From a virus, in the IMG/VR virus record IMGVR_UViG_3300030450_001442, positions 1 to 28,110 of that record: a stretch of DNA of 28,110 nucleotides; one strand, given 5' to 3'. Of the stretch, positions 1-4,935 are shown in pieces; the first letter of the stretch is position 1, and every line of letters starts with the position of its first letter. Under the pieces are notes generated by a model. It ran no database searches. It was not told the origin of the DNA and saw nothing but the letters and a program-made list of their open reading frames with translations. The position numbers and the translations under genes were made by a program.

Positions 1-606
1 TGCCCAGACCAACTTTCTAAGTTGTTTGGCAACAATGACAGGGATTTCGTGAGTAGTGCGGCAAACGCATCATTCATGGATGCACAGATAGATTATGGGA
101 GCGGCTATTTAGCAGCAGATGCTAGACCATTAACCTTAACTCTGTTAAACAGCATGCTAAGGCAACTAAGAGAAGCAGGCGGAAGCCCCAAGGTTATCTT
201 AACTGGATATGATACTATTCAGCATCTAGGTGACCTATTACAAAGCCAAGAGAGGTTCTTAGACCGAAAGGAGATTATCCCTACTCATGGCGGCGTTAGG
301 GGAGTAAAGGGTTCCGAGGTAGGATTCAGAGTAGCGACCTACTACGACATACCCTTGATTCCATGCAAGGACATGCCTAAGACCGGTAATGGTTCTAACA
401 AGTTAAGCGACATGCTTATCTTAGATACCGACCATATCTGGTTATCAGTTATGAAGCCAACCCAATACTTTGAAGATGGTATTGACAACGGTAACCCCTT
501 TGGTGTTGGAACGCTAGGAAACCAAGCAATGTATAGAACCATTGCTGAAACTGGTTGTTCTTTCTTCTTAGGACAAGGTAAGATAACGAACATAACGAGT
601 GCTTGA
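1..606 (+). CDS. Major capsid protein (HK97 fold), C-terminal part, 5' end outside window
   Basis: The reading frame is open from the first base (it begins CPDQLSKLFG), so the gene starts upstream; about 201 codons are visible, ending in TGA at 604-606. The protein has the look of the C-terminal half of an HK97-type capsid subunit: a central segment that builds the A-domain, then a stretch near the end reading LILDTDHIWLSVMKPTQYFE, which is the usual 'value at a defined residue, then PTxYFE' strand pattern of such proteins in archaeal and some bacterial tailed viruses. The downstream order (small virion genes, adaptor, terminator, tail tube) also fits. GC is higher here than in the accessory genes (27 of 60 bases in 481-540). 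The call rests on pattern and gene order, not on a search; another head protein is possible but less likely. Confidence 0.72.
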   Translation, partial: CPDQLSKLFGNNDRDFVSSAANASFMDAQIDYGSGYLAADARPLTLTLLNSMLRQLREAGGSPKVILTGYDTIQHLGDLLQSQERFLDRKEIIPTHGGVRGVKGSEVGFRVATYYDIPLIPCKDMPKTGNGSNKLSDMLILDTDHIWLSVMKPTQYFEDGIDNGNPFGVGTLGNQAMYRTIAETGCSFFLGQGKITNITSA

Positions 607-1732: not shown

Positions 1733-1760
1733 TAAGGGAACCGTGTTTAGGACAAACCAA

Positions 1761-1767
1761 GAGGAGG
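1761..1767 (+). promoter_or_regulatory. Strong ribosome binding site GAGGAGG fixing the start at 1776
   Basis: GAGGAGG lies 8 bases before the ATG at 1776 and is the strongest anti-16S match in this part of the window. It rules against the longer reading from the GTG at 1743, which would translate the site itself. The strength suggests a highly expressed virion protein. Confidence 0.8.
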
Positions 1768-1775
1768 AATTGAAA

Positions 1776-2147
1776 ATGACTTCGGGAGCAGCAACAACCA
1801 AAACACATGTATTTTTAGTACACACTGGTTCTCCGGCAAATGACCAAACGATAAATTCATTTGCTGGTAGCCAAGCGGTGCAGTTAATAACAGGTAAGGC
1901 AAGACTACTTTCATTAAAGGTAAGTAATAATCAAACAACTGCAATGGATGTTAGATTTTATGACGGTGCAGGCGGTACTACTGGTAGTGCTTTTAATGGA
2001 AAATTAATCCATAAAGTACATATTGGGGCTGTAAGAGAAAATCTAGACTTTGATATGCATGGGGCCATCGTAAGTGATGGATTATATGTTCTAGTTAGTG
2101 GGGCAGGAACCAAAGTAAACGTTTCAGTTTCTGCACAATATAACTAG
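1776..2147 (+). CDS. Small beta-rich virion protein, putative decoration protein
   Basis: This protein has 123 residues. No membrane segment or signal is visible. The alternation of hydrophobic and polar residues, with elements such as 'ARLLSLKVSNNQTTAMDVRFYD' compressed into strands and a final 'DGLYVLVSGAGTKVNVSVSAQ', is typical of single-domain beta-sandwich virion proteins in which the last strands read 'GLyVxVSGa..vxVsv'. The very strong ribosome site predicts abundant product, consistent with a decoration or surface protein. It precedes the membrane-protein block by 8 bases, its stop overlapping that gene's ribosome site (AGGTGA at 2146-2151). The family is not recognised with certainty. 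Confidence 0.5.
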   Translation: MTSGAATTKTHVFLVHTGSPANDQTINSFAGSQAVQLITGKARLLSLKVSNNQTTAMDVRFYDGAGGTTGSAFNGKLIHKVHIGAVRENLDFDMHGAIVSDGLYVLVSGAGTKVNVSVSAQYN

Positions 2148-2155
2148 GTGAAATA

Positions 2156-2554
2156 ATGCCAGCATTAGGAAAAGACACAAAATTAGTAATGACTATACTG
2201 TTCGTTGGAGCAGTAAGCGGCGTAAACGTATTTTTTTACGCTGAGTATGGGAATCTCTTAGCATTTTCTCATTATGCACACGCAACCGTGTTCTCATTGA
2301 TGACCATTGGTGGAATACTTGTAATGAAGGCGGTCTTCGACCTTGCCTTAAATGACTATATTGAAATGAGCCTTTTAGATAGGCGAATTGGAGCCTACTG
2401 GACAAGGAGAGCGCGTGATGAACAACAAAGAGAAAGGGTTAGACAAAGCCTACAACAGTATAATCAACAATGGGGATATACTACCCCACAACCAGATACT
2501 GTTGTAACGCCAGTTAAGAAGCAGCCTTCTTTCTTAGCAGAAATTGAACAGTAA
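2156..2554 (+). CDS. Small membrane protein with two transmembrane helices
   Basis: This protein has 132 residues. Two hydrophobic helices are visible at about residues 9-29 (VMTILFVGAVSGVNVFFY) and 40-62 (HATVFSLMTIGGILVMKAVF). They are followed by a positively charged, probably helical cytoplasmic region (DRRIGAYWTRRARDEQQRERVRQ) and a flexible Q/P-rich tail. The positive-inside rule places the C-terminal part in the cytoplasm. It is the first of three consecutive genes encoding two membrane proteins and a GTPase. A holin-like role is conceivable from size and topology, but genes for lysis are seldom placed between capsid and connector genes, and the long soluble tail suggests a partner-binding role. 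The function is unknown. Confidence 0.6.
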   Translation: MPALGKDTKLVMTILFVGAVSGVNVFFYAEYGNLLAFSHYAHATVFSLMTIGGILVMKAVFDLALNDYIEMSLLDRRIGAYWTRRARDEQQRERVRQSLQQYNQQWGYTTPQPDTVVTPVKKQPSFLAEIEQ

Positions 2555-2562
2555 GTGTAAAT

Positions 2563-2787
2563 ATGTTGGAAGCAATAGCATTTGGAATGGATGAAACAGC
2601 CTTAGCATACGACATGCAAAGGGCGCATTCAGCCGATGTATGGTTTTTAAGAGCAAGATTTTATTTTTGGGGATTTATAGGATGTTTAGTCAGTTTTACT
2701 ATCGGTCAATTAATGGCTGCTTCTGGCATAAACACATTAACAATAGCATGGGAGGGTCTTTGGGACTTCGTACATCATTTAGTATGA
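2563..2787 (+). CDS. Small single-pass membrane protein
   Basis: This 74-residue protein starts 8 bases after the preceding stop. Residues about 1-28 are polar to amphipathic (with DETALAYDMQRAHSADV). A hydrophobic helix follows at about 30-52 (ARFYFWGFIGCLVSFTIGQLM), and then a short amphipathic, tryptophan-containing C-terminus (TIAWEGLWDFVHHLV). There is no cleavable signal. With the two-helix protein upstream and the GTPase 10 bases downstream it looks like part of a three-gene membrane cassette. The function is unknown; holin, membrane anchor for the GTPase, or membrane-remodelling partner are all possible. Confidence 0.55.
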   Translation: MLEAIAFGMDETALAYDMQRAHSADVWFLRARFYFWGFIGCLVSFTIGQLMAASGINTLTIAWEGLWDFVHHLV

Positions 2788-2797
2788 GGTATGTATA

Positions 2798-3466
2798 ATG
2801 TCAGTAATGACGGGATTTGTAATTCTTGTTGTTGAACAGATAGGACTATTGTGGAAGAAAATAAACCCTCACCCTTTTGGAATATATGGTGCTACACAAG
2901 TAGGAAAAACAACATTACACCACCAATTAAGAACAAGAGGAGATGTTCCAGAAATACAACAAAGAACAGTAGGTAGAGAACGGGCCACTAGAAAAACAAT
3001 TAAAATAGATGGAGATATACATACAATACGAACATCTGATATTGGAGGGGAAAGTCTATATTGGGGAGATTGGCTTCAGGATATGAAATCAAGAAAAGTA
3101 AAATACATAATATTTATGATAGATGACAGACATTTAGCCAAACATATAGATATAGAACAACAATTATGCTGGAAATTTTTAACAGATTGTATCATTTCAC
3201 CTTATTGGGATTTAGTAAATAAAAGACAAAGAAAAGGCAGAAAAGACTATCCAATAGCAGTAGGAATCTGGGCAAATAAATTTGATTTATGGAAAGATAA
3301 ATACCCATATGATGATATAATGAAACACCCAATATTTGATACATTTCAAGATGGTATGCAAAAATTAAATGATAAAGGAATACCATGTCATAAATATATA
3401 GTAAGTGCAAAATCAGATTCAGAAATGGTATACCGAGGAGTCACAACAATGATAGAGGATTATTAA
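2798..3466 (+). CDS. Ras/Arf-like small GTPase with hydrophobic N-terminal helix
   Basis: This 222-residue P-loop GTPase shows the full motif set in order. G1 is G31-ATQV-G36-K37-T38 (GxxxxGKT), binding phosphates. G2 is a threonine in the 57-67 region (T57, T64 or T67). G3 is D81-I-G83-G84, the Arf-style 'DxGG' switch II. G4 is N160-K-F-D163 for guanine specificity. G5 is S203-A-K205. G4 and G5 make GTP rather than ATP the likely nucleotide. Residues 3-19 form a hydrophobic helix that could tether the protein to membrane, as in Arf proteins or the SRP-receptor beta subunit. It follows two membrane-protein genes. The conserved catalytic Gln after DxGG is replaced by Glu85, so intrinsic hydrolysis may be slow. 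The gene is markedly AT-rich (14 G/C in 3361-3420). Its role in a virus is unknown. Confidence 0.8.
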   Translation: MSVMTGFVILVVEQIGLLWKKINPHPFGIYGATQVGKTTLHHQLRTRGDVPEIQQRTVGRERATRKTIKIDGDIHTIRTSDIGGESLYWGDWLQDMKSRKVKYIIFMIDDRHLAKHIDIEQQLCWKFLTDCIISPYWDLVNKRQRKGRKDYPIAVGIWANKFDLWKDKYPYDDIMKHPIFDTFQDGMQKLNDKGIPCHKYIVSAKSDSEMVYRGVTTMIEDY

Positions 3467-3540
3467 TGCCAACAAAAAGAGTTTTCAATATAAATTGCTC
3501 GCAAGGAGTAATGTGTCAATGCAAGGAGTGTAAAGAATGA
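3466..3540 (+). CDS. 24-residue cysteine-rich microprotein, putative zinc-binding
   Basis: This is a very short frame wedged exactly between two genes. Its ATG shares one base with the GTPase stop (TAATG, 3464-3468) and its TGA overlaps the next ATG (ATGA, 3537-3540). It encodes 24 residues with four cysteines, C11, C17, C19 and C22 (C-x5-C-x-C-x2-C), enough to bind one zinc ion. A GAGG element at 3455-3458 lies 7 bases before the start, and an AAGGAG in its own end serves the next gene. The perfect coupling at both ends and the clustered cysteines argue for a real gene; it could otherwise be a translational bridge with no functional peptide. Confidence 0.5.
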   Translation: MPTKRVFNINCSQGVMCQCKECKE

Positions 3541-4205
3541 GTATGCAATACCAACCACCAAGTTTAATTGGAGCACAAAGCGCGGCTGTGGGGAACGCGT
3601 TTTTACCACCAATGAAGTATGCAAGAGCAGCAGGGTCTGTTATGCAATATGATTATAAGAGTAGTAAACCAAAGAAGCAAGTTAAGGAAATGATTAATAT
3701 TTTATGGCCTGAAAGAAAGTCTTTTTTGAAGATACCTTATGGATATAAATTCAATATACAGGATAGATGTGTAGTATGTGGAACTCATAAGGTTTGGGAG
3801 GCAGGTGACCCAATGAGACCAACAATACCCCTTCACAAAGTTAGAAAGGGTTATCCAATGAGAGGGACTTATTGTGAGAAGCATGCACAATTACATAAAC
3901 AATATGAGATGTTAGAGCAACAAAGAATAGCCGAAGAACACGGCCTTTCTTTTAGTGCATACATACCTACACCCAAAGTACCTAAAATCTTAGAATCTGC
4001 ACCGCTAACTTCATTAAGGCAATCCGATATTGAGAGTTTGGCGGCTAGTGGCTGGACAATTAAACCTCCACAAATGGCCGTAGAAACACCAGAAGATGAA
4101 TTGTTTAGATTAACAATGGAAAGTCACGCAAACAATAATAGAATAATTAAGTTGATGACAGAAGGAACACCAGTTCCACAAATAGTAGAAGAAGAGGTAG
4201 AATAA
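3537..4205 (+). CDS. Unrecognised protein with split CCCH zinc-finger-like site
   Basis: This protein has 222 residues. Residues 1-40 are low-complexity and Ala/Pro/Gln-rich. A central basic region carries C78-x2-C81 with H84 nearby, and after 31 residues C113-x2-H116, a plausible zinc site. A helical, charged segment follows (QLHKQYEMLEQQRIAEEHG), and the end is very acidic (EEEVE). AAGGAG (3522-3527) lies 9 bases before the start, and the start codon overlaps the stop of the four-cysteine microprotein, so expression is probably coupled to it. No family is recognised. A nucleic-acid or protein binding role in assembly would fit a zinc module within a late operon, but that is inference. Confidence 0.55.
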   Translation: MSMQYQPPSLIGAQSAAVGNAFLPPMKYARAAGSVMQYDYKSSKPKKQVKEMINILWPERKSFLKIPYGYKFNIQDRCVVCGTHKVWEAGDPMRPTIPLHKVRKGYPMRGTYCEKHAQLHKQYEMLEQQRIAEEHGLSFSAYIPTPKVPKILESAPLTSLRQSDIESLAASGWTIKPPQMAVETPEDELFRLTMESHANNNRIIKLMTEGTPVPQIVEEEVE

Positions 4206-4206
4206 T

Positions 4207-4935
4207 ATGGGAGTATTTGGAACAAGTAACTCAAGTATTGCACAACAAATAGATGCACAAGGGGCGGCTCAATTTAAAGCCACCAACAATTTATTAACAT
4301 TACAGACTAATCATGTAGAAGAGTTCTTTGAGTATCATGGTGAAGGATTTTTAATGGCATTAGATAAATTAGTAGAAGATTCTGTAGAACGAGTAGTAGC
4401 AAAAATGCTTAGTTCATTAAAGTTAACTCAAGGTTCTAGTGGAGAAATGGTTGTTCATCCTGATTGTACCGCTACATTTAATGCAATAACCGATGCTAAC
4501 ATTCAATTAGATGTACAGGCTGTATTAGCAGCCGCAGTTAATACTGAAGTAGTAGCCCAGAGAAAGATGGCTAAACAACAGTATTTAGAAACACAAGGCT
4601 ATGCACAAGCATCAATGCAACAAACACAACCGCAAGCGATGCCTCAATCATATACACCACAAGGCGCAAACATGCCTAATGCTGGCGGTTTACAACCATC
4701 ACAAATTTCGGGTGGTAATCCAATGGTTCAGGCTAATAACGTTGCAATGCAACAACAACAAGCATTTAACAATCCATCAGGCTTCCCTGTGACTCCTGCT
4801 GGATATGATACTATGGGGAACGCTTACTGGATAGACCCAATGACAGGCCAACCCTCTTATACGCCCCCTGGGAGTGGCTTAGGTTTAGGAAAGATGATTT
4901 CTAAAGGGGCTGCATGGGCGGCTTGGTTAGCATGA
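4207..4935 (+). CDS. Unrecognised Q/P-rich protein with helical N-terminal domain
   Basis: This 242-residue protein starts one base after the preceding stop. Residues about 5-125 look helical (VEEFFEYHGEGFLMALDKLVEDSVERVV, with further Ala-rich segments) and contain one isolated Cys. Residues about 130-215 are low-complexity and rich in Gln, Pro, Asn, Met and Gly, consistent with a flexible linker. The end is a short glycine then Ala/Trp-rich amphipathic stretch (GKMISKGAAWAAWLA) that could associate with membrane or a partner. Its place after the zinc-like protein suggests the same complex or pathway. The function is unknown; a scaffold or virion linker protein is a guess. Confidence 0.5.
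   Translation: MGVFGTSNSSIAQQIDAQGAAQFKATNNLLTLQTNHVEEFFEYHGEGFLMALDKLVEDSVERVVAKMLSSLKLTQGSSGEMVVHPDCTATFNAITDANIQLDVQAVLAAAVNTEVVAQRKMAKQQYLETQGYAQASMQQTQPQAMPQSYTPQGANMPNAGGLQPSQISGGNPMVQANNVAMQQQQAFNNPSGFPVTPAGYDTMGNAYWIDPMTGQPSYTPPGSGLGLGKMISKGAAWAAWLA

Follow-up and report, generated by a model that had tools for sequence, protein, structure and literature searches.

A Ras-superfamily GTPase encoded with two small membrane proteins in the head operon of putative magroviruses

In the late operon of a tailed virus whose lineage matches Magrovirales, we identified a divergent Ras-superfamily GTPase encoded next to two small membrane proteins, M132 and M74 (the three genes are referred to below as the triad). 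The window, i.e. the whole stretch of DNA that was analyzed, is an IMG/VR virus record of 28,110 bases. Because the GTPase never occurs apart from the two membrane proteins, a step at the host membrane that the virus itself runs seems indicated. We tentatively propose that a GTP-switched membrane machine (the GTPase, M132 and M74, perhaps tuned by the adjacent gene product g3537) is obligatory in the late cycle of magroviruses, serving either exit of a budding or pore type or membrane-docked assembly.

Of the archaeal viruses reported from the surface ocean, magroviruses rank among the most abundant and, to our knowledge, none has been cultured. We found no description of a GTPase in the literature on magroviruses, Poseidoniales viruses and Marine Group II viral genomes (an annotation in a supplement is possible), and no GTP-switched membrane machine described for any tailed virus. 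As far as the literature was searched, the Ras-superfamily switch is therefore in a setting without earlier description. With this finding, Ras-like GTPases encoded by viruses, until now seen in giant viruses that infect eukaryotes, are also recorded from tailed viruses of prokaryotes. It stands alongside the recent discovery of small-GTPase vesicle budding in euryarchaea, and provides a concrete and testable candidate for host exit of marine archaeal tailed viruses, a largely unknown step.

Gene order and conservation of the triad

Based on the open reading frames and their profile matches, the first ~23 kb of the window (from position 1) form one apparent late operon, in the order MCP C-terminus, small head genes, triad, g3537, g4207, g4945, g6732, tail tube (Phage_tube_2 match, 2.4e-21) and large tail genes. 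The head module includes the following features:

1..606, + strand: major capsid protein (MCP), C-terminal part, SU10/HK97-like, start of the head module (Pfam SU10_MCP 1.4e-6, PHROG major head protein 3.3e-10)
1743..2147, + strand: g1743, conserved head-module gene without assigned function, always immediately upstream of the triad (149/149 loci)
2156..2554, + strand: M132, membrane protein of 132 aa, two helices hydrophobic and C-terminal tail charged (KD19 maximum 2.0)
2563..2787, + strand: M74, membrane protein of 74 aa with one hydrophobic helix (hydropathy), preceded by a conserved RAHSAD motif
2798..3466, + strand: Ras-superfamily GTPase of 222 aa with an N-terminal membrane-associated helix (motifs, AlphaFold2, Foldseek, sub-threshold Pfam matches)
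3537..4205, + strand: g3537, conserved neighbor with a zinc-finger-like CxxC...CxxH site (invariant at residues 78, 81, 113, 116)
4207..4935, + strand: g4207, conserved neighbor without assigned function (149/149 loci)

The ORF list places the three triad genes exactly where the sequence-only reading had put them, with spacings of 8-10 bases. That reading had also described them as lying between capsid and connector genes. The capsid side of this description holds, the MCP gene ending at position 606; the term connector is no more than plausible for g6732, on account of its homology to HVTV-2 gp126 and HCTV-16 gp121, genes of unnamed function located upstream of the tail tube.

Relatives number at least 369 in IMG/VR. 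The order MCP-g1743-M132-M74-GTPase-g3537-g4207 is kept in all 149 loci with enough flanking sequence; in 17 loci, M74 and the GTPase are separated by additional ORFs. To avoid circularity, loci were also recruited by the capsid protein; M132, M74 and the GTPase were present in 49 of 49 further loci with at least 4.5 kb downstream, although some of these are contigs already in the first set, cut anew with the capsid gene at the center. Thus the co-occurrence of the three genes, on which the sequence-only reading had made itself dependent, was found throughout. Since the context is conserved in 149/149 and 49/49 loci, chance is excluded. Among 16 long contigs recruited by PolB, the GTPase and the MCP were both present in 6 and both missing in 10, an identical pattern of presence and absence. 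As judged from sequence comparison, the triad genes are intact and under strong purifying selection (dN/dS of ~0.02-0.27 for M132, M74 and the GTPase, in pairs where it was computable).

A tblastn search of INPHARED gave no match to the GTPase at E<=0.1, and its absence from deposited phage genomes at this threshold agrees with the earlier statement that such genes are not standard in tailed viruses. A scan of 84,980 prokaryote genomes returned only two contigs of one MAG, in GTDB (L094 and L095; NZMJ01, labelled Maricaulis sp. IN14). Both carry the same virus gene order, so that these contigs of a bacterial MAG are apparently viral (magrovirus) contamination, and a cellular origin was rejected. 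In Druskaviridae, four small genes lie between the capsid gene and the g6732 homologue, and none of them matched M132, M74, the GTPase, g3537 or g4207 in the stretches examined; the block therefore appears particular to the marine lineage. An HVTV-anchored alignment of capsid proteins yielded shared patterns too sparse for a scan.

Hydropathy analysis placed hydrophobic segments at residues ~10-28 and 44-62 of M132 and at residues ~33-57 of M74. The maximum of the Kyte-Doolittle plot (19-residue window) exceeds 1.3 in 100% of M132 homologues (184/184), 99% of M74 homologues, 87% of GTPase homologues and 0% of g3537 homologues. The GTPase was thus correctly credited with a hydrophobic N-terminal helix of its own, residues 1-19 being hydrophobic. 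Membrane helices are missing from g1743, g3537 and g4207 in most or all homologues. M132 is further characterized by the conserved motifs T-L-MT-LFVG and K-FD...IE..LL.R. On the structural strand of the window and of the long relative G002, the triad provides the main proteins with hydrophobic segments; the only others are a large tape-measure-like ORF, with one segment in mid-protein, and a 649-aa ORF, with a borderline one. On that strand of genome G006, two more short ORFs (55 and 77 aa) are hydrophobic as well. The neighboring g3537 adjoins the GTPase in 149/149 loci and has an invariant site formed by C78, C81, C113 and H116, suggesting a possible regulator or zinc-dependent structural protein. 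A tiny Cys-rich ORF (~19-30 aa) lies between the GTPase and g3537 at 3467-3538 of the window, where it overlaps both; a search with the pattern NCSMxxxCxCxECxE found it in 27/184 loci (e.g., L004, L010, L015, L022, L094, L098, L101).

Motifs and fold of the GTPase

The alignment of 156 distinct homologues was used to locate the nucleotide-binding motifs, which are listed below together with the N-terminal helix:

2801..2863, + strand: N-terminal hydrophobic helix, residues 2-22 (hydropathy segment 1-19), with S2, M4, G6, F7 and E13 invariant
2888..2914, + strand: G1 / P-loop GATQVGKTT (GATxVGKTT in relatives)
3038..3052, + strand: G3 motif DIGGE
3275..3286, + strand: G4 motif NKFD, guanine specificity
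3404..3412, + strand: G5 motif SAK

The alignment indicates an intact guanine-nucleotide site. Residues G31, G36, K37, T38, T39, T57, D81, G83, G84, N160, K161, D163, S203, A204 and K205 are invariant, one homologue with a missing N-terminus excepted, and the patterns GxxxxGK[ST] (G1), switch-I Thr (T57), DxxG, NKxD and SAK are all present and invariant or nearly so; they cover the G1, DIGG, NKFD and SAK motifs that had been picked out from the single sequence. The position of the Ras catalytic Gln, after DxxG, is occupied by Glu in 140/156 homologues and by Gln in 16/156. Ser2 is found in 153/153 homologues that reach this residue, hence the GTPase has no Arf-type N-myristoyl glycine. The conservation moment of the N-terminal helix, calculated to detect one-face conservation, was not above that of shuffles (0.52 of shuffles reach it), and for this reason we make no claim about helix packing.

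It is the fold and the motifs, rather than any curated profile, that mark the GTPase as a divergent member of the Ras superfamily. The window protein scored 20.8 bits against MMR_HSR1 (Pfam cut-off 21.9) and 19.6 bits against the NCBIfam profile small_GTP (cut-off 42.5), with further sub-threshold matches to the Pfam profiles SRPRB, Roc and Ras; Arf was absent among its Pfam matches at E<=1. Among 30 aligned members of the family, MMR_HSR1 was matched by 30, SRPRB by 28 and Arf by 11 at E<=0.05 (best Arf match 7.5e-4).

Two AlphaFold2 models were built, the first, poor in the P-loop region, from a 30-sequence alignment and the second from a 68-sequence alignment (pLDDT 72.9, pTM 0.74). Both have the Ras topology (beta1-P-alpha1-beta2-beta3-alpha2-beta4-alpha3-beta5-alpha4-beta6-alpha5), and the top Foldseek matches of both are Ras/Rab/Arf/G-alpha GTPases with E of ~1e-5 to 1e-8. 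For the deeper model, 1,230 PDB entries were matched at E<=0.001, the best being Rab5c, Rab33, Rab6B, Arl8b and Asgard Arf (E in the 1e-7 class); Rab5c (E 9e-8) had the highest TM-score normalized by target length, 0.72. In BFVD, 52 entries were matched at E<=0.001; nearly all of the best 50 are GTPases of Ras/Rab/Ran type from giant viruses of eukaryotes, and no tailed-virus protein is named among these 50. A PDB search with the single sequence produced chromodomain noise only.

On these models the predicted Ras-superfamily fold is secure. The comparison with kinases and packaging ATPases, set beforehand as decisive for the GTPase assignment, came out on the side of Ras/Rab/Arf proteins. A P-loop NTPase of another type could be suspected from weak matches to the ATPase_2 and guanylate-kinase profiles, but this identity is hardly credible in view of the invariant NKxD and SAK motifs in 156 homologues and the GTPase matches of both models, and it was rejected on motifs and fold. 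No subfamily can be named from the models, because Foldseek ranks Rab, Arl8, Asgard Arf and Ras together. Of the earlier label Arf-style, the DxGG motif stands; membership of the Arf family was rejected on the invariant Ser2 and the missed profile cut-offs, and the mixed structural ranking is also against the label. The Roadblock/LC7 partner typical of an MglA-type bacterial GTPase was looked for as well, and the neighboring genes had no such Pfam match at E<=1.

Virus lineage and related systems

The long relatives have genomes of 92-103 kb with two oppositely oriented gene blocks. They encode a PolB split into N- and C-terminal parts, a TFIIB zinc domain protein (TFB), RFC, ERCC4, ATP-dependent DNA ligases and a pyrimidine-dimer glycosylase, as well as portal, protease and capsid genes. 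Full-length homologues of the capsid protein match only archaeal viruses in INPHARED, with Druskaviridae as the best matches. The published traits of Magrovirales include a 90-110 kb genome, PolB, TFB, RFC, ATP ligase, ERCC4, a Druskaviridae-related MCP and modules on opposite strands (PMC10768690, PMC12999244, PMC10160649). This set was found in the relatives G002 and G006, the 28-kb window itself being without it, and no reference magrovirus was among the INPHARED search matches. The lineage of the window virus thus matches Magrovirales as assigned by genome traits against published descriptions. The hosts are almost certainly marine archaea, presumed to be Poseidoniales (MGII archaea). Relative to the Magrovirales families Aoguangviridae and Apasviridae, genome size, split PolB, TFB, RFC, ERCC4 and oppositely oriented modules are shared, whereas the descriptions available make no mention of the GTPase, M132 or M74.

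Two PolB-bearing contigs, G016 (L311) and G025 (L361), of 79 and 75 kb, have neither capsid protein nor GTPase and resemble the 'group D' magroviruses, which were reported without structural genes. In the head operon at L090, the gene immediately before that of the prohead protease (L090:25-1818) codes for a protein that contains a domain of ATP-dependent DNA ligases (4.8e-32). A lipid phosphatase domain of the PAP2 type, and thus another possible membrane-acting gene, is present in three of the seven long genomes (G002:93391-93657, G007:53879-54145, G008:12216-12479).

We compared the viral GTPase with four types of known systems. Euryarchaea such as Haloferax bud vesicles by means of ArvA, a small GTPase that has a hydrophobic helix at its N-terminus; the ArvA operon includes a zinc-ribbon protein whose loss raises budding (PMC10927574). 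The viral cassette shares with ArvA-ArvB-ArvC (OapABC), as described there for ArvA, a membrane-associating small GTPase with such a helix and an operon containing a zinc-binding protein, and both GTPases are best described by Pfam PF01926/Arf-type profiles. In contrast, the viral partners are two transmembrane proteins, the location is a virus head operon, and the zinc-finger-like site of g3537 differs from the ArvC zinc ribbon. In the window and seven long relatives, ArvB (PF09846) was found in 0/8 records at E<=1 and ArvC (PF09845) in none above cut-off, with weak matches elsewhere in three genomes; direct membership of the Arv system was rejected on these two results. Rab/Ras/Arf small GTPases, including Asgard GerdArfR1 (PDB 8oum), share the fold and the G1-G5 motifs; the viral protein differs from them in its low identity (only 12-20% over the aligned fold), mostly Glu for the catalytic Gln, the N-terminal hydrophobic helix and an insertion after alpha3. 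The Rab/Ras GTPases of giant viruses (mimivirus 5xc5, pithoviruses, klosneuviruses) are likewise virus-encoded members of the Ras superfamily, but belong to viruses of eukaryotes with unrelated genomes and operons. SRP receptor beta (SRPRB) is also a membrane-anchored Ras-like GTPase, weakly matched by 28/30 members; the match is below cut-off, and no SRP-receptor alpha-type partner was seen in the viral operon.

Possible roles in the late cycle

We place virion release first, as a tentative reading with somewhat less than an even chance. The GTPase, M132 and M74 would be made late, together with the capsid proteins, and the N-terminal helix of the GTPase would hold it to the inner side of the host membrane, next to M132 and M74, which may form a complex with it as its platform or effectors. 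Binding of GTP would switch the GTPase on, and local remodeling or opening of the membrane would then allow assembled virions to leave, a mode of action likened to that of ArvA; g3537, the zinc-finger neighbor, may regulate the GTPase. Release was given this place for three reasons: (i) the triad represents the main membrane-type proteins of the structural strand in the window and G002; (ii) no known lysis family occurs among 67 ORFs of G002, with no endolysin or holin family among their Pfam matches at E<=1e-5; and (iii) euryarchaeal vesicle budding is driven by a small GTPase with an N-terminal helix and an operon zinc-ribbon protein (PMC10927574). The Ras fold, the intact motifs, the constant triad order (149/149 and 49/49) and the identical GTPase and MCP distribution in the 16 PolB-recruited contigs are also in its favor. 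Against it, a location between the capsid and the downstream head and tail genes is more usual for virion or assembly proteins, the window and seven long relatives have no ArvB homologue and, in three of them, ArvC matches that are below cut-off and elsewhere, and the missing lysis gene may only reflect an unrecognized one. Membrane-based assembly comes close to release in likelihood; entry and host interference are less likely.

For membrane-based head assembly, the GTPase with M132 and M74 would dock procapsids or head-completion proteins to the cytoplasmic membrane, and GTP hydrolysis would time maturation or head-tail joining. This possibility, to which we give a rather low probability, is consistent with the strict position of the triad within the head module, near the co-conserved MCP, g1743, g3537 and g4207, and with the presence or absence of the GTPase following that of the MCP. 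However, head assembly in tailed phages does not normally involve a GTPase. Druskaviridae, moreover, have the MCP and a g6732 homologue in common with these viruses, yet the triad profiles matched nothing in the stretch between the two; the head plan can therefore do without the triad.

The triad might instead be carried in the virion for entry, as a membrane complex admitting DNA into the next cell. The late head operon fits this role, and other late proteins carry a shared N-terminal tag resembling a packaging signal, which makes virion cargo plausible; the tag is absent from M132, M74 and the GTPase, however, and the tape-measure-like ORF has its own hydrophobic segment, making this alternative improbable. 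Slightly less probable still is host interference, in which a decoy GTPase would block one of the host's GTPase pathways, for example that of the SRP receptor or that of vesiculation. The weak SRPRB and Arf profile matches would suit such a decoy, but the GTPase is always accompanied by the two membrane partners and the capsid gene, and the invariance of its catalytic and switch motifs, the Glu/Gln position apart, speaks for a working switch and against an inactive decoy.

The tag, M(S/T/N)WxxILK, is present on many late proteins of these viruses that are otherwise apparently unrelated, including those at L085, L086 (genome G006), L089, L093 (genome G002), L129, L158, L178 and L183. Among 13,401 ORFs (redundant loci), 98 carry it in their first 12 residues, whereas 1.6 would be expected from its internal frequency. 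Two whole genomes contain 17 tagged ORFs, all on the structural strand and none on the replication strand. The tag is a candidate leader for capsid packaging or for targeting, similar in kind to the capsid targeting sequence of T4. It was noticed through the tagged extra ORFs in the 17 loci with insertions between M74 and the GTPase (e.g., L158:7056-7996, L208:7157-7992, L129:7445-7993). By eye, one of the inserted ORFs resembles a minimal nucleotidyltransferase (GSxxxxxxxDID) and another resembles an ADP-ribosyltransferase-like fold.
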